From: an uncultured Lacticaseibacillus sp.
GTDB lineage: Bacteria; Bacillota; Bacilli; Lactobacillales; Lactobacillaceae
Reading direction: 5' to 3'
Assembly: GCA_934293835.1 (NCBI GenBank)
Contig: CAKQZO010000037.1
Coordinates: 1 to 13,072, forward strand
Length of the DNA: 13,072 nt
Translations under genes and position numbers: made by a program
Notes under the pieces: model-generated
Databases searched by the model: none
Told to the model about the DNA's origin: nothing
What the model saw: the letters and a program-made list of their open reading frames with translations, nothing else
Part shown: positions 2,936 through 10,849 of the stretch, in pieces
How the letters are laid out: each line of letters opens with the position of its first letter
How positions within the stretch are numbered: position 1 is the stretch's first letter

Positions 2936-2995
2936 CGTTATTTAATCAATTTAGAGGGATAATCTATCTTTTTAACAACGCACATCACTTTTTGA

Positions 2996-3020
2996 AGTCA
3001 CGCAACTGCGTGGCTTTTTT
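2996..3020 (+). terminator. Rho-independent terminator after dnaN
   Basis: An 8-bp stem (2996-3003 with 3008-3015, one T-G wobble) with loop AACT is followed by a run of T residues to 3020. It ends the dnaA-dnaN transcript. An in-frame TTG at 2992 would place a coding start inside it, which argues against that longer start for the next gene. Confidence 0.85.
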
Positions 3021-3046
3021 GGTGGTCCGAAAGCGTATCTATTCTG

Positions 3047-3056
3047 AAAAGGAGGG
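3047..3056 (+). promoter_or_regulatory. Ribosome binding site of the surface-protein gene
   Basis: AAAAGGAGGG ends 7 bases before the ATG at 3064 and decides that start over the upstream in-frame TTG. No convincing promoter is visible between the terminator and this site, so expression may rely on read-through or on a weak promoter (TATCTA at 3035-3040 is a possible -10). Confidence 0.8.
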
Positions 3057-3063
3057 ATGCGCG

Positions 3064-4353
3064 ATGCGCAAATTGTGGTTATTGCTAATATTGAGCGTCA
3101 GTTGGTGGGGCCTGCGTCCGCGCCCGGTTGTGGCAGCATACGATCCCGCTCAGGGTGGGGTCTTTTGGGAACCGCCTGAAGAGGCGTGGTTACTCCCGAA
3201 TAAATTTGGCTTTATCCCATTCGGCTACGCGCCTGCCGGTGATCTTTCAGTAACGACGATCGCCAAGAATATGCCGCAGGGAGAAATCCGCACTATCGAT
3301 GGGGAAACTACTACTGGGGTGATCGTCAATAGTCATAACAGCCACCTTGGGGTTTCGGTTCGGATCGTAAATCCGGGCAGATATGTCCTTAACTTATCTT
3401 TGGCAACGGGAGGTGAGCTGATGAGGCGGACCGTCATCTTGAATGTTGGTGAACAAAGCGGTGTGCGCCAGCTAGTGCCGCTGCCGAATCGCCCGTTGAT
3501 GTCGCCGCTACCGGTGTTAGCGGAAACGACCGGCATACAAGGCGCCAGTTTTGAGCCGCTACAAGGTACCGGTCCTGAAGGCGGTGCGAACGGCCTCGGC
3601 TGGGTGCTTAGCAAGCCGCTTGTTTTTGTGCCTCCTGACGTGTTGATCTCCCTAGGGACGATCGTAATGATGCCGCGTGGGTATCACCTCACAACGACGG
3701 TTGATGGCCAGACGCTGCCTGTTACGTTGACGTATGGCCTTGATCCCGTCACTGCGATAGAAGGGCACCCATTAACGCTAGATTCACTGTATCTGAAGCC
3801 ACTGCCAGACACGACGCTGACGTTTACCTGGACCTACAATCCGGACTCACCGCAAAAACAAACCGTGACAAGCACCACGCCATCGATCCCGATTCCCGAG
3901 ACGTGGCACGCCGATGGTCAACTTAATGTGATGCTTCAATATGCGTATAACAACAAGACGGTGACGCTCAGATCAAATACGGTGGCGTACCATTACCAAT
4001 CGCAGGCGATCACAACACGGCGAACCACGACTGTGGCAGTGAGTGATTTGCTGCAACATGATCTGCGGGTGAATGCCAGCCTCGCAGATTGGCACGTCAG
4101 CCAACCTGGCGATTGGCAACTGGAGGTGGCGGTTTCGCCGCTTCAGACGCAAAGTGGTGCGCGGCTAGCGGCAACGTTGCGACTACCAGATGGGACACAG
4201 ATCGCTGCCGGTCAGTCGCAGCGGGTTGCTTACACCGGAGATCAGGTGGTCCCGCTGGCACAGGCCGAGTGGCTGTTACAGCAACAGCCGGCAGTGGTTG
4301 CTGGCCAATATAACGGATCGGTTCGTTTCACAGCAATATTCGGACCGGAATAA
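3064..4353 (+). CDS. Secreted cell-surface protein with WxL-like C-terminal region
   Basis: The 429-residue protein has a clear signal peptide: MRK, a hydrophobic core LWLLLILSVSWWGL, and a likely cleavage after VVA near residue 24. The mature part is rich in Thr, Val, Pro and Tyr and reads as beta-sandwich material with no transmembrane anchor and no LPxTG motif. The last 90 or so residues (NASLADWHV, then GDWQLEV with W351-Q-L353, GARLAATLRLPDG, a final YNGSVRFTAIF) resemble the layout of WxL domains, which bind peptidoglycan non-covalently in lactobacilli and enterococci. The usual second WxL motif near the end is replaced by FTAIF, so the assignment is tentative. Its exact role is unknown. 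It interrupts the conserved dnaN to S4-gene order and is boxed in by a terminator on each side, which suggests an accessory insertion. Confidence 0.75.
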   Translation: MRKLWLLLILSVSWWGLRPRPVVAAYDPAQGGVFWEPPEEAWLLPNKFGFIPFGYAPAGDLSVTTIAKNMPQGEIRTIDGETTTGVIVNSHNSHLGVSVRIVNPGRYVLNLSLATGGELMRRTVILNVGEQSGVRQLVPLPNRPLMSPLPVLAETTGIQGASFEPLQGTGPEGGANGLGWVLSKPLVFVPPDVLISLGTIVMMPRGYHLTTTVDGQTLPVTLTYGLDPVTAIEGHPLTLDSLYLKPLPDTTLTFTWTYNPDSPQKQTVTSTTPSIPIPETWHADGQLNVMLQYAYNNKTVTLRSNTVAYHYQSQAITTRRTTTVAVSDLLQHDLRVNASLADWHVSQPGDWQLEVAVSPLQTQSGARLAATLRLPDGTQIAAGQSQRVAYTGDQVVPLAQAEWLLQQQPAVVAGQYNGSVRFTAIFGPE

Positions 4354-4763: not shown

Positions 4764-5890
4764 GATTGACTCACCTAACGCTGCGTAACTACCGGAGTTA
4801 TGCCAAGGTCGATACCGATTTTTCGCCTCAGATCAATGTGTTGATCGGCGAGAATGCCCAGGGTAAGACGAATCTGCTTGAGTCCGTGTATGTGTTAGCG
4901 TTAGCGCGTAGTCACCGCACGAACAACGACAAGGAATTGATTCGTTTCGGTGCCGATTTTGCTAAGGTCACTGGCACTGTCGCGCGGACAACCGGGAGCC
5001 ATCAGCTGGAGCTGGTGATTTCCAAACTCGGCAAGAAGGCCCGCTACAACAAGATCGAACAGCCGCGATTATCAACGTACATTGGACATTTTAACGTGGT
5101 CTTGTTCGCACCCGAAGATCTGGCGATCGTCAAGGGGAGTCCGGCTAATCGCCGCCGGTTCATTGACATGGAGTTCGGCCAGATGAGTGTCAAATATTTG
5201 CAGGTTCTCAGCGAATACCGCACGGCGTTGCGCCAACGCAACGCTTATCTCAAACAGCTGAAGTACCATCAGGCCAAGGATATGGTGTTGCTTGATGTTT
5301 TGTCCGACCAGCTGGCCGCAGCCGGCGCTGAGATCGTTGCGCGTCGCAGTCAGTTGTTGCAACAGATGGCGGAATTTGCCGCGACGATTCACAGCGACAT
5401 CACGAAGGGCCGCGAGCAGTTGACGTTCCAGTATCAAAGCCAGGTGCCAGAAGCGGCGCGCGGCGATGCAACGCAGGCGTATCAGGCGATGGGGGAGCTA
5501 TTGACCAAGCACCAGGCGCGGGAGTTAGAACAAGGAACAACCCTTGTTGGCCCCCATCGCGATGATGTCGCCTTCATCGTCAATGGCAAGAACGTCGCCA
5601 ATTTCGGTAGCCAAGGCCAACAGCGCACAACGGCACTGGCGGTGAAGCTCGCAGAGATTGACCTGATGAAGGCTCAAACCGGTGAATATCCAGTCTTGTT
5701 ACTGGATGATGTGCTGTCAGAGCTTGACGATGATCGCCAGACCCACTTGCTTAAAACAATCCAGAATAAGGTGCAGACCTTCTTGACGACGACTAGCCTA
5801 GATGGCATCGCCAAAGAGATCATTGACACACCGGCCGTCTACCGAGTGGCAGACGGGCAGCTGACGAAGGAGGAAACCAGTCGTGACTGA
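4760..5890 (+). CDS. recF: DNA replication and repair protein RecF
   Basis: This 376-residue ABC/SMC-like ATPase loads RecA at single-strand gaps together with RecO and RecR. Visible motifs are Walker A GENAQGKT at residues 30-37, the ABC signature region SQGQQRT at about 284-290, and Walker [13 protein letters not shown] at about 312-323. It starts [14 protein letters not shown], typical of RecF. The start overlaps the S4 gene stop (ATGA), and the end overlaps the gyrB GTG by 8 bases. The three genes are therefore one translationally coupled operon. Confidence 0.97.
5867..5873 (+). promoter_or_regulatory. Ribosome binding site of gyrB inside recF
   Basis: AAGGAGG lies within the last codons of recF, 9 bases before the GTG at 5883, and supports that GTG as the gyrB start. 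Confidence 0.85.
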
Positions 5891-7844
5891 TAAAGAAGAA
5901 GCTCAAATCGAGGCCAAAGAAGAAAAGGCGGCGGAATATGACGCCAGCCAAATTCAGGTCCTTGAAGGGCTTGAAGCGGTACGTAAGCGTCCCGGGATGT
6001 ATATTGGGACGACCTCTAGCCAAGGGCTCCATCACTTGGTTTGGGAAATCATTGATAACGGGATCGATGAAGCCTTAGCTGGTTTTGCGTCGACGATTGA
6101 CGTGACTGTCGAATCCGACAATTCAATCACCGTTTTCGATGATGGCCGTGGGATTCCAGTCGATCTCCAAAAGCAGACTGGTTTACCAGCGCTGGAGACA
6201 GTGTTCACCATTTTGCATGCTGGCGGGAAGTTCGGCGGTGGCGGGTACAAAGTTTCTGGTGGCCTGCACGGGGTCGGCGCGTCTGTCGTCAATGCCTTAT
6301 CGACGACGCTTGATGTCACCGTCAGCCATGGCGGGAAGTATTACTACATGGACTTCTCTCGCGGCAAGGTGACCACCAAGATGAAGGTGATCGGGGATGC
6401 GCCTGAGCATGCCCACGGCACTAAAGTGCATTTTGTGCCAGATCCCGATATTTTCACCGAAACGACAACTTATGACGACAAGATCTTGACGCAACGGATT
6501 CGTGAGCTGGCGTTCTTGAACAAAGGCTTACGGCTGACGTTCACCGATAAGCGTGCCGAGACGCACGAGAAGCTCGTTTTCCATTACGAAGGCGGGATCA
6601 AGGAATACGTCGATTTCTTAGATAAAGGCAAGACGGCGGTGTTGGCGGATCCGATTTACGTCGAAGGTCAGGCCAATGGCATCACGGTCGAGGTGGCGTT
6701 GCAGTACACGGATGACTACCACACGAACCTGATGACTTTTGCCAACAACATTCACACCTATGAAGGCGGAACGCATGAGACGGGCTTCAAAACGGCATTG
6801 ACGCGCGTGATCAATGATTATGCACGTAAATCCGGCCAGTTGAAGGGCAACGATGATGCACTGTCAGGCGAAGATGTGCGTGAAGGGATGACTGCGGTGG
6901 TTTCCGTCAAGCATCCGGATCCGCAGTTCGAAGGTCAAACCAAAACCAAGCTTGGTAACGCCGATGCACGGACGGTGACCGATCGGACCTTCTCTGAGCA
7001 TTTTGCCAAGTACTTGATGGAACATCCGACTGAGGCCCATCAGGTGATCGACAAGGCGCTGTTGGCGAACAAGGCGCGGGCGGCTGCTAAGCGGGCGCGG
7101 GAAGTGACCCGGAAGAAGTCGGGGTTGGAGATCTCTAACTTACCGGGTAAGCTGGCGGATAACTCTAGCAAAGACCCTGAGATCTCTGAATTATTCATCG
7201 TCGAAGGGGATTCTGCCGGTGGTTCCGCCAAGTCCGGGCGTAGTCGCTTGACGCAAGCAATTTTGCCGATCCGAGGGAAGATTCTTAACGTCGAAAAGGC
7301 TTCGATGGAGCGGATTTTGGCTAACGAAGAAATCCGTACGCTGTTTACGGCGATGGGGACTGGGTTTGGCGAAGAGTTCGATGTCGCCAAGGCGCGTTAC
7401 CATAAGCTGATCATCATGACCGATGCCGATGTCGATGGTGCGCATATTCGGACGTTGCTATTGACGTTGATCTATCGGTACATGCGGCCGTTGTTAGAGG
7501 CGGGGTTTGTCTATATTGCCCAGCCACCTCTGTATCGGATTCGTCAGGGCAAGATGATGCGCTATATCGACTCTGACGATGAATTGGAAGAAGTTCTGGG
7601 CACCTTGCAACCGAGTCCTAAGCCTGAGATTCAGCGCTACAAAGGGCTAGGGGAAATGGATGCCAACCAACTTTGGGAAACGACGATGGACCCGGACAAG
7701 CGCCGCTTGCTACGCGTTTCACCGGAAGATGCCGAAGCCGCCGATAGTATTTTTGACATGCTGATGGGCGACAGAGTGGAACCACGCCGCAAGTTCATCG
7801 AAGACAACGCGGTGTACGTGGACGCTAAGAACATCGATGCCTAA
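5883..7844 (+). CDS. gyrB: DNA gyrase subunit B
   Basis: The 653-residue ATPase subunit of gyrase powers negative supercoiling with GyrA. The GHKL ATPase domain shows [13 protein letters not shown] (catalytic/Mg-binding E55, N59), DDGRGIPV from about residue 86 and [13 protein letters not shown]. The transducer region contains QTKTKLGN. The TOPRIM domain shows [13 protein letters not shown] from residue 441, [12 protein letters not shown] and the metal-binding [11 protein letters not shown] from residue 514. The C-terminus has [19 protein letters not shown]. Length and the recF/gyrA neighbours identify it as GyrB rather than ParE. It starts at GTG within recF and has an acidic/lysine-rich N-terminal extension of about 18 residues. 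It is followed by an unusually long structured gap before gyrA instead of the usual short spacer. Confidence 0.98.
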
Positions 7845-7845
7845 A

Positions 7846-7969
7846 CGAGAGCGGAACTGAGCGGTTTTTGCTGGGAGTCTAAGCTAGAACACCGCAGAGA
7901 TGCGAAGCATCACGAAGGTGTCATGGCTTAGACAACCCAGCATTGTTCAGTGTAGCTCGACGAAAAAAA
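7846..7969. repeat. Structured tandem repeat, unit 1 (gyrB-gyrA gap)
   Basis: Unit 1 begins just after the gyrB stop with GAGAGCGGA, related to the CAGAGCGAAG that opens units 2 and 3. Its outer stem is GCTGGG-A-GTCTAAGC (7870-7884) paired with GCTTAGAC-AA-CCCAGC (7926-7941), 14 bp. Inside are ACACC/GGTGT (7889-7893 with 7917-7921) and the tip hairpin GATGC-GAA-GCATC (7899-7911). GGTTTTT at 7863-7869 can also pair with AAAAACC at 7965-7971, closing the unit. It ends with the shared core GTAGCTCGACG at 7952-7962 and a 7-A run. Over its first 44 bases it matches unit 3 at about two positions in three. Confidence 0.75.
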
Positions 7970-8094
7970 CCAGAGCGAAGCGGGGCCGCACTTAGGGCGT
8001 AGCGTAACGTGTGCGGTTGACGGAGCGAACTTGTTCGCGCAGTCAACAGTGCCGTTAGGCCTAGCCCGTTGGCCCGCGTAGCTCGACGAAAAAA
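7970..8094. repeat. Structured tandem repeat, unit 2 (gyrB-gyrA gap)
   Basis: Unit 2 opens with CCAGAGCGAAG and ends with GTAGCTCGACG (8078-8088) plus a 6-A run. The likely outer stem is GGGC, TAG, TAACG (7995-7998, 8000-8002, 8005-8009) with CGTTA, CTA, GCCC (8053-8057, 8061-8063, 8064-8067), broken by small bulges. Inside are GTTGAC/GTCAAC (8016-8021 with 8042-8047) and a strong tip hairpin GCGAAC-TT-GTTCGC (8025-8038). An alternative local stem, CCGCAC/GTGCGG (7986-7991 with 8011-8016), competes with part of this. The interior is unlike the other units in sequence. Confidence 0.75.
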
Positions 8095-8219
8095 CCAGAG
8101 CGAAGTGGCGCGGTTTTAGCGATGTGGCTAAGGCAGCTTGGACGGTAACCGGCAAGGCCGGTGGACGACCGAGATGACTTAGACGCAATCGCGTTGGTCC
8201 CGCGTAGCTCGACGAAAAA
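8095..8219. repeat. Structured tandem repeat, unit 3 (gyrB-gyrA gap)
   Basis: Unit 3 opens with CCAGAGCGAAG and ends with GTAGCTCGACG (8204-8214) plus a 5-A run, after which the array stops. The outer stem is GCGAT-GTG-g-CTAAG (8119-8132) with CTTAG-a-CGC-a-ATCGC (8178-8192). The tip hairpin is ACCGGC-AAG-GCCGGT (8148-8162), extended by CGGT/ACCG (8143-8146 with 8168-8171). GGTTTT at 8112-8117 pairs with AAAACC at 8216-8221, matching the closing pairing of unit 1. A competing local hairpin is TTAGC/GCTAA (8116-8120 with 8127-8131). Confidence 0.75.
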
Positions 8220-8260
8220 CCACAATCCTGCAGCCATGAGCTGTATCTGAAACAACTTTG

Positions 8261-8267
8261 AAGGGAG
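8261..8267 (+). promoter_or_regulatory. Ribosome binding site of gyrA
   Basis: AAGGGAG lies 11 bases before the ATG at 8279. An in-frame TTG at 8258 sits upstream of and next to this site and so cannot be the start it serves. Confidence 0.75.
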
Positions 8268-8278
8268 CAATTGCGTCA

Positions 8279-10849
8279 ATGGATGACCGCCAAGAAAGCC
8301 GGATCACAAATGTTAATCTGGCTAAAACGATGAAAACATCGTTCCTGGAATACGCGATGAGTGTCATTGTTGCCCGGGCTTTGCCTGACGTGCGCGACGG
8401 CCTCAAGCCGGTTCAGCGTCGGATTCTGTACGGGATGAACGAACTCGGGGTGACACCTGACAAGCCATACAAGAAGTCTGCGCGTATCGTCGGGGATGTC
8501 ATGGGGAAATACCATCCACACGGGGATTCTTCAATCTATGAAGGCATGGTGCGGATGGCGCAGGACTTCTCGTATCGGTACATGCTGGTTGATGGGCACG
8601 GGAACTTCGGCTCTGTCGATGGTGATGGCGCCGCTGCGATGCGTTATACCGAAGCGCGGATGAGCAAGATCACGCTTGAGATGTTGCGCGACATCAATAA
8701 AGACACGATCGATTATCAGGATAACTACGATGGCACGGAAAAAGAACCGGTGGTCTTGCCGGCGCGTTTCCCTAACCTATTAGTCAACGGGGCGACTGGG
8801 ATCGCGGTCGGGATGACGACTAACATTCCGCCGCATAACCTCGCTGAAGTGATTTCTGCGCTGCATATCTTGATGGATAACCCAGAGGCGACCACCGCCG
8901 ATTTGATGTCGGCACTGCCTGGACCGGATTTTCCAACCGGGGCCTTGGTACTGGGTAAGTCTGGTATCCGGCGTGCTTATGAAACCGGTAAGGGCGTCAT
9001 CACGGTGCGGGCAAAGACCGAGATCGTGACCGAAAAATCGGGTCGCGAGCGGATCATCGTCACCGAAATTCCTTACATGGTCAACAAGGCCAAGCTGGTT
9101 GAGCGAATCGCAGAGCTGGCGCGGGAAAAGAAAATCGAAGGGATCACTGATCTCAACGATGAATCTGACCGTGAAGGGATGCGCATCACAATCGACATCC
9201 GGCGTGACATGTCGGCCTCTGTCGTTTTGAACAACTTGTTCAAGCTGACCCCGCTGCAAACCGGATTCTCCTTCAACATGGTCGCGATCGTCAATGGCGC
9301 GCCAAAGACGTTGAGTCTCAAAGAGATTCTGACTTACTACCTGCAACATCAGGAGCAGGTCATTCGTCGGCGCACGGCGTTCGAATTGAAAAAGGCGCAG
9401 GCGCGTGAACATATCCTCGAAGGGTTGAAAATCGCGCTCGATCATATCGATGCCATCATCAGCATCATCCGCGGAAGCGAAACTGGTGACAAGGCCAAGG
9501 TCGTTTTGATGGACAAGTACAACTTGTCTGACAAACAAAGCCAGGCGATTCTCGACATGCGGCTGGTGCGGTTGACCGGTTTGGAACGCGACAAGGTCGA
9601 AAACGAATTGAGTGAGATTCGCAAGGCAATCGCGGACTACCAAGACATTCTGGCGAATCCGCAACGGGTTCATCAGATCATCTATGATGAACTGCTAGAG
9701 ATTCAGCGCAAGTTCGGCGATAAGCGCCGGACAGAGTTGCTGGTCGGCGAAGACCTGAACATCGAAGACGAAGACCTGATCGAAGAAGAGACGGTTGTGA
9801 TTACTTTGACGCACAACGGTTACGTCAAGCGGTTACCGGTCGATGAGTTCAAGACACAAAATCGTGGTGGCCGCGGGATTCAAGGCACCGGGGTGCACGA
9901 TGATGATTTCGTCGAGCATCTCGTCTCGACGTCGACGCATGATGTGTTGCTGTTCTTCACCAACTCGGGTAAAGTTTATCGTGCCAAGGGGTATGAGATT
10001 CCAGAATATGGTCGCACAGCCAAGGGGATCCCGATCATCAACCTGCTGGGCATCGATAACAACGAGAAGATCCAGACCGTCATCAACGTCCATCCAGGTG
10101 AGAACGACAACGGCTTCTTGTTCTTCGTGACGAAGTACGGGGTCGTGAAGCGGACGCCGGTCAGCGAATTTCTTAACATTCGCAAGAACGGGCTGATTGC
10201 CTTAAACATGCATGACGATGATGAACTCAGCCGCGTCATTCCGACGACTGGTGCAGACACGATGCTGATCGGGACGCACAACGGCTACTCGGTCACCTTT
10301 GCCGAAGAAGACGTGCGGTCGATGGGCCGTAGCGCCACTGGGGTGCGCGGTATCCGGCTACGCGACGACGATTACGTCGTCGGCGCCGATGTCTTAACCG
10401 CCGATTCCGAGGTGCTTGTGGTTTCCGAAAAAGGTTACGGCAAGCGGACTGCGGCTCACGAGTACCCAGTTAAGGGCCGCGGGGGCAAAGGCATCAAGAC
10501 GGCCAATATCACCGAAAAGAATGGGCCGTTAGCGATCGTCACAACCGTTTCTGGCGACGAGGATATCATGGCGGTGACCGATGCAGGAGTCATGATTCGC
10601 TTCAGCATCGACAACGTCTCGCAAACCGGACGCGCCACTTTAGGCGTGCGGCTGATGCGGGTCGATGACGGCACGAAGGTCGTGACGGTGGCCAAGCTCG
10701 TCAAAGAACCTGACGAAGACGAGGCACCGGCAGCAGCACCAACAGAGACCACTGATGCGCCTGCTGGCGACGCCAATGCGCAAGTCGATGAACTATTGCG
10801 TCGCGCCGAAAGCGATACACCAGATCCAGAAGGCCATGAAGACGAATAA
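8279..10849 (+). CDS. gyrA: DNA gyrase subunit A
   Basis: The 856-residue protein is the DNA-cutting and wrapping subunit of gyrase. The catalytic tyrosine is Y123 in AAMRYTEAR. The quinolone-determining region reads [10 protein letters not shown] with S84 and E88, the residues usually found in quinolone-sensitive Gram-positive bacteria. The C-terminal beta-pinwheel carries a GyrA-box-like QNRGGRG at about 527-533, which marks it as GyrA rather than ParC, and a later GRGGKGIK repeat. The tail is acidic and Ala/Thr/Pro-rich, ending EGHEDE. The ATG at 8279 is chosen from its ribosome binding site and because [14 protein letters not shown] fits family N-termini. Expression probably depends on read-through from gyrB across the repeat array. 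Confidence 0.98.

Follow-up and report, generated by a model that had tools for sequence, protein, structure and literature searches.

The gap between gyrB and gyrA analysed here is occupied by three tandem copies of a dispersed repeat, and sequence comparisons indicate that this repeat belongs to a hairpin family found in lactobacilli and related to elements of other Bacilli. The window, i.e., the whole stretch of DNA analysed (13,072 nt, contig CAKQZO010000037.1 of assembly GCA_934293835.1), comes from an uncultured Lacticaseibacillus sp. The copies share a covarying, strand-oriented fold with conserved G.A mismatches, and in the window and in the related genome G001 many arrays begin directly past stop codons. 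The explanation that we put first, and whose chances we regard as evenly balanced, is a dispersed REP/ERIC-like hairpin family that sits at stop codons and here would shape gyrB output through the co-transcribed first hairpin of the array.

The gyrB-gyrA gap extends over 434 nt (7845-8278), from the gyrB TAA to the gyrA ATG. The upstream cistron, gyrB (5883..7844, plus strand), was identified by Pfam matches to DNA_gyraseB and other domains and by its translation, and the downstream cistron, gyrA (8279..10849, plus strand), by matches to DNA_topoisoIV and DNA_gyraseA_C. The first-pass annotation had described three tandem structured units filling this gap, and R1, a covariance model built from 50 units (47 from G001 and the three from the window), locates them at 7847-7964, 7971-8090 and 8096-8216, all on the plus strand. 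Unit 1 is a long imperfect hairpin with a GAGC/GCTC base that starts 2 nt 3' of the gyrB TAA stop; unit 2 has the same architecture and a different body, and unit 3 repeats the architecture of both. Their R1 scores (87.3, 65.1 and 103.1 bits, respectively) are those of members of the training set, and the top match of the three is unit 3 in a model built mostly from G001 units. Each unit folds into one long imperfect hairpin of about 120 nt, and the hairpin-rich, divergent interiors noticed at first reading were confirmed by the differing bodies and by the fold z relative to dinucleotide shuffles (-8.85, -3.92 and -3.30 for units 1 to 3; -9.15 for the whole region). A right border and an A-rich linker separate units 1 and 2 (7954..7970, plus strand) and units 2 and 3 (8080..8095, plus strand), and the leftover gyrA leader (8217..8278, plus strand) carries a Shine-Dalgarno-like GAAGGGAG at 8260-8267.

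The common borders proposed for the units hold on the right side only. The window contains three exact copies of the right border AGCTCGACGAAAAA, which with up to three mismatches gives six matches against 1.63 expected, a number reached in one of 200 shuffles. The left border CAGAGCGAAG is present only in units 2 and 3, unit 1 starting with GAGAGCGGAAC, and taken alone it is not beyond chance (two matches with at most one mismatch, equalled by 50 of 200 shuffles). When 7600-8400 was scanned with consensus patterns, neither promoter-like nor terminator-like sites appeared, and no GC stem with a T-run behind it, the signature of an intrinsic terminator, was found on the transcribed strand; the units end with GACGAAAAA. 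A minus-strand open frame of 86 codons (7928-8188) overlaps the units and looks incidental. In line with the initial failure to recognise an RNA family, the 4227 Rfam covariance models gave no window match at the gathering threshold and none in 7840-8280 at E ≤ 10. The same search of 20 loci of relatives returned no gathering-level match over any unit; at L127 a below-threshold match to a plant miRNA overlaps one of them. Elsewhere in the window, a 453-codon open frame (2992-4353) lies between dnaN and recF as an unusual extra gene of the dnaA-gyrA block; its start is signal-peptide-like by eye, and it has no Pfam match at E ≤ 0.001.

The number of copies was counted in relatives, chiefly G001, in place of the source genome. 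Among the 80 loci listed, the top GyrA identity to the window (91%) belongs to L051, a locus of the Lactobacillus MAG G001, which has four units in its gyrB-gyrA gap; the DNA identity over gyrB-gyrA is 83.1% for G013, 83.0% for G020 and 81.2% for G001. With the L051 array as a blastn query against G001 (2.8 Mb), the best 40 of 101 candidates yielded at least 67 matches at E ≤ 10 and at least 59 at E ≤ 1e-3. R1 gave at least 120 matches in the same genome, as all 120 scored candidates matched (overlaps on the two strands counted separately), and 95 distinct units were read there. The units are mostly about 116-124 nt long; those of the T class in G001 usually end with CTA, and those of the G class do not. 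Dozens of copies adjoin genes other than those of gyrase, many of them unrelated. Across the genus, 27 of the 30 genomes contain R1 matches at E ≤ 1e-3, ranging from 1 to at least 120 per genome with both-strand overlaps included. Among the best 120 candidates there were 22 matches in G013 and 19 in G020, while genome-wide scoring of the best 120 candidates found none in G004, G016 and G023; the gyr gap of G016, searched separately with R1, holds two partial units. The yield also depends on the model: 800 kb of G021 contain 38 units by R1 and 55 by a clade HMM. The idea of a dispersed repeat family amplified in the gap thus gains strong support from the genome of a relative (G001) and from 27 of the 30 genus genomes. 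A lack of both conservation and further copies had been named beforehand as a finding that would speak against a functional element; the relatives conserve it, in many copies.

Some arrays have an unusual arrangement. At L114 (845-1203 and 1251-1746) four tandem units follow about 50 nt past the gene for bacterial class B RNase P RNA. At L092 and L104 units at most about 40 nt apart face in opposite directions, whereas arrays are usually head-to-tail. A tandem variant with a period of about 103 nt, devoid of the first 22 nt or so, was found in G021 (C1 2466736-2467160 and 2596493-2596919), where in some arrays it comes after full units.

The fold of the family was analysed in a MAFFT alignment of 50 units (A2, 47 units from G001) with the pairs chosen by RNAalifold. 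In this alignment 96.4% of 1798 cells are paired, compared with 75.8% after shuffling, and the covariation score is 0.573 versus 0.181 in shuffles and at most 0.099 with slid partners. Both sides have changed in 26 of the 36 pairs, and these changes do not represent independent events because the units are related and 47 of the 50 come from one genome. The non-canonical positions are conserved as well. A GNA/GNA 3x3 loop is found in 43 of the 50 units, with the outer positions canonical in 0/50 and 1/50 units and the centre in 31/50, and an additional G.A mismatch (columns 43:83) is present in 42. As to the strand, G.U pairs outnumber A.C pairs by 237 to 7 in A2 and by 138 to 23 in 38 units of G021, counted over pairs from RNAalifold, a program with a preference of its own for G.U. 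Outside the base, positions -3 and +4 covary, being C:G (50) or A:T (42) in 92 of 103 distinct units. On this comparative evidence, the hairpin fold looks to be under selection and strand-specific. Long inverted repeats are prone to template-switch correction, and the units might be neutral palindromes held perfect in this way during replication, their fold not being selected. The persistence of unit 3 of the L051 gyr array, which seems to be a chimera as its arms no longer match (z -1.14), would fit such neutrality. Correction of this kind should, however, remove the G.A mismatches as well as the TTAG-type bulge; both are retained in most units and across clades, and we consider this explanation very unlikely.

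The position of the arrays relative to genes was determined for the window array and 29 arrays of G001 picked by blastn score, a sample in which the window and L051 arrays are one locus in two species. Seventeen of the 30 arrays begin 0-7 nt past a same-strand stop (open frames of at least 80 codons), compared with 1.2% of random positions in the same loci and 0/30 in the mirror control. When only the 23 arrays that have a stop no more than 60 nt away are considered, this enrichment over a uniform spread has a p value of 5e-11. The stop-codon rule is clear in the window and G001 and does not extend to the L. casei-like genomes described below. At L090, L098 and L110 the called upstream open frame runs into the array, whose start overlaps its 3' end; in these cases the stop codon and the C-terminal residues may come from the element itself.

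The gyr gaps of the genus offer a view of a single site across species. R1 found units in eight of the 30 gaps. All six arrays in the sense orientation (G001, G002, G008, G016, G017 and G019) begin at the gyrB stop, which supports the REP/ERIC-like reading, and the two antisense arrays (G025 and G026) adjoin gyrA. The remaining 22 gaps gave no R1 unit, and those of G003 and G027 hold apparent remnants by eye. Against the same reading count these 22 gaps and the fact that G013 and G020 are slightly closer to the window in their gyr DNA than G001, yet their gap gave no R1 match and their genomes gave fewer matches. The gaps of G020, G013, G012, G011, G005 and G009 (L273, L274, L277, L281, L283 and L284, respectively) measure 265-711 nt, and their content, which has no R1 match, possibly includes other repeat families.

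These data also bear on two functions suggested at the outset that are tied to gyrase. An mRNA element specific to gyr and tuning GyrA against GyrB would agree with the four G001 units at the same place and with the sense arrays at the gyrB stop in 6/30 genomes. Dozens of copies, however, adjoin other, unrelated genes, two of the eight occupied gaps have antisense arrays and most gaps have no match; the dispersal of the copies largely refutes this proposal, which we judge extremely improbable. Alternatively, the array could be bound as DNA by gyrase, HU or another protein and act on supercoiling, as is the case for BIME-2 of E. coli, a protein-binding array. The similarity of the units within an array and the location of one array between the gyrase genes are what such a role would lead one to expect. 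Binding to duplex DNA needs neither selection on single-strand pairing nor strand asymmetry, and the units are found in only 8/30 gyr gaps, which leaves this role very unlikely.

A different picture of the preferred positions emerged from four L. casei-like genomes (1.71 Mb in total): G007, which is L. chiayiensis, and G006, G021 and G018, whose near-gyrA identity to G007 is 91%, 84% and 82%, respectively. This set contains 125 units in 84 arrays, 81 of them with a complete 5' end. A T-run lies within 16 nt of the 5' end in 37/81 arrays, as opposed to A-runs in 10, T-runs in the 3' flank in two and 6.2% at random, and an 8-nt pyrimidine tract lies within 22 nt in 28/81, as opposed to a purine tract in five, none in the 3' flank and 3.3% at random, where the random positions were drawn from the whole genome, coding and intergenic alike. 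Inspected by eye, the T-runs often form part of intrinsic terminators, and the pyrimidine tracts often represent antisense Shine-Dalgarno sites. The terminal pair splits the arrays into two subfamilies, T-A (53) and A-T (17), and a T-run or an anti-Shine-Dalgarno-like tract precedes 47/53 of the former versus 3/17 of the latter (p 1e-7; 11 unclassed arrays left out, orthologous arrays each counted). A stop within 10 nt was found for 3/53 T-A arrays and 3/17 A-T arrays; the stop-codon preference of the A-T subfamily that had seemed likely by eye was dropped on this count. There is no obvious replication-strand bias among 29 arrays of G021 (14 plus, 15 minus), and repeat arrays occur in both orientations relative to genes. 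In both G007 (C45, ~247103-247218) and G006 (C1, ~214811-214928) a unit abuts a common flank, which we take to be the 3' end of 23S rRNA.

The positions in the L. casei-like genomes form the basis of the main rival of the REP/ERIC-like reading, namely a selfish single-stranded DNA hairpin whose folded top strand is moved by a putative enzyme, the effect on RNA being incidental. The enzyme would read the G.A loops and the TTAG bulge and target stop codons, T-runs and pyrimidine tracts. Such a hairpin would account for the strand-specific structure, the T-runs and pyrimidine tracts in the 5' flank, the presence in both gene orientations and the exchange of bodies between fixed ends described below. 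It accounts for the T-run and pyrimidine targets and for the antisense copies better than a REP-like role does; where T-A arrays follow T-runs or anti-Shine-Dalgarno tracts, the array and the upstream gene would not be expected to share a sense transcript. Several empty sites in G006 or G007, however, hold remnants, and Y1_Tnp has no match in 17/30 genus genomes, including the element-rich G008, G012, G019 and G021. RAYT/IS200 was set aside as the mobiliser, the distribution of Y1_Tnp being out of step with that of the elements (the PF01797 model, which cannot tell RAYTs from IS200 TnpA, has matches in 13/30 genomes). We regard the mobile hairpin as possible and hold it tentatively; it is compatible with the REP/ERIC-like reading, and both can be true.

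The arrays themselves show that their ends are set by the locus and their bodies are not. Among 98 distinct units from the window and G001 (51 of terminal class G, 45 of class T and two unclassed), the terminal class is identical in 64/64 neighbouring classed pairs from 29 loci. The bodies of adjacent units have a mean similarity of 0.629 (n = 64) versus 0.640 for units of other loci (1500 sampled pairs), and the nearest body is found in the same locus for 22 of 97 units. Simple local tandem duplication was therefore rejected as the source of array members, as adjacent bodies are no closer than distant ones. G006 and G007 are mostly 84-94% identical in the stretch that was compared; by eye, they have seven arrays in common, and several others are present in one species alone, at several of which the other species has a partial remnant. 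The persistence of remnants in the array-less species makes deletion the clearer event in this pair, and the occurrence of arrays in only one of two species about 90% identical, frequently with a scar left at the corresponding site of the second, indicates that those copies are dispensable, a point against the REP/ERIC-like reading. In the comparisons of G021 and G007 with G006 for target duplication, the unoccupied sites were too diverged or contained remnants.

Kin of the family were found outside the genus. Among 151 genomes of the taxonomic family, with the best 24 candidates of each scored, at least 13 have matches at E ≤ 1e-4; nine of them lie outside the 30 genus genomes and gave 2-13 matches each when searched singly. 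By eye, nearly all of 26 loci from these nine genomes have a common anatomy, which from the base upward comprises a short GAGN-type base, a 3x3 internal loop, a stem of 7-8 bp, a 4-nt 5' bulge ending with TTA, a stem of 6-7 bp, a second internal loop and a long upper stem. Among 250 genomes of the class (best 14 candidates each), at least five have matches, G001 and four others, which contain a variant starting with AAAAGCG and ending near AGCTGGA, in tandem in G372. An HMM of this variant matched three of the 80 loci, in Sporosarcina globispora (E 1e-9), Halobacillus salinus (2e-7) and, partially, Peribacillus deserti (4e-5). In Halobacillus the copy occupies the gyrB-gyrA gap in antisense orientation, immediately 5' of the gyrA ribosome-binding site, and the minimum-energy folds of the copies from these three species are partly or not canonical. 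A wider reading would see a Bacilli-wide class of hairpin cassettes, in which a dedicated putative factor reads the GNA/GNA loops and the TTAG-type bulge of the folded top strand and inserts or swaps entire hairpin bodies at ends that are fixed for each locus and located at stop codons, T-runs or anti-Shine-Dalgarno tracts. This proposal is doubtful; if true, it would amount to a novel type of mobile element, single-stranded and able to remodel the ends of genes.

Several known repeats resemble the family in part. REP/BIME of enterobacteria and pseudomonads are described as dispersed palindromes, some at stop codons, with a single strand recognised by RAYT (PMC3733652, PMC12306157, PMC8266576). 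The hairpins share with them the many dispersed intergenic copies, the clustering in arrays and the position of some beside stop codons. They differ in length (about 120 versus 20-40 nt), in their several conserved internal loops, in the Bacilli host, in the units usually facing one way (L092 and L104 excepted), in showing no dependence on RAYT and in lacking a fixed GTAG/CGTC end tag, as GTAG is found near the 3' end of some units and GCAG, GGAG or other sequences in the rest. ERIC/IRU and Ypal are reported to be intergenic, about 127-168 nt long and co-transcribed with their neighbours (PMC2229807), ERIC being associated with lower stability of upstream mRNA. Our family is likewise an intergenic long stem-loop and has the ERIC/MITE trait of a many-copy hairpin of 100-200 nt; it stands apart by tandem arrays, locus-fixed ends, the stop-codon and T-run preferences and its host. 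TA target duplication is a trait of ERIC and RUP. Other small dispersed folding repeats of Firmicutes are RUP, BOX and SPRITE of Streptococcus pneumoniae and Bcr1 of the Bacillus cereus group, which PMC3049150 and PMC2267715 describe as largely confined to a species or group, whereas the present family extends across a genus, with kin in several families (a distinction drawn from descriptions, not sequences). Finally, Table 7 of the L. casei KACC92338 report (PMC11464305) includes five short 'CRISPRs' at evidence level 1; by eye, their repeats seem to be pieces of the hairpin element. Unlike CRISPRs, the arrays have no identical repeats and unique spacers; the bodies differ and the linkers are short and locus-specific. 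Beyond this table we found no description of the family in the literature, which is weak evidence as few subscription papers were covered.

Returning to the REP/ERIC-like reading, the simplest interpretation of a gap with no recognisable promoter or terminator is that gyrB, the array and gyrA would be carried on a single mRNA. Hairpin 1, located 2 nt past the gyrB stop, would then fall within the footprint of the terminating ribosome. E. coli REPs less than 16 nt from a stop codon are reported to slow termination and/or block 3'-to-5' decay (PMC12306157). By analogy, a co-transcribed element probably influences the cistron that precedes it: hairpin 1 may slow termination and/or stop 3'-to-5' decay, and as a result gyrB output would be altered and uncoupled from that of gyrA. 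The family would be spread or maintained by a route apparently independent of a RAYT/IS200-type transposase, with hairpin bodies swapped among loci and the locus-specific ends kept constant.

Lacticaseibacillus includes food and probiotic species, and extrapolation from 800 kb of G021 (55 units; genome of 2.99 Mb) gives about 200 copies in one genome. If these lie near stop codons, T-runs and ribosome-binding sites genome-wide, they would constitute a large unannotated layer affecting mRNA ends, pieces of which have seemingly already been mislabelled as CRISPR. The combination of fixed ends and exchangeable bodies raises a new question of how bacterial repeats move. The family would also provide a Gram-positive test of whether stop-adjacent REP-like hairpins control translation and mRNA decay.
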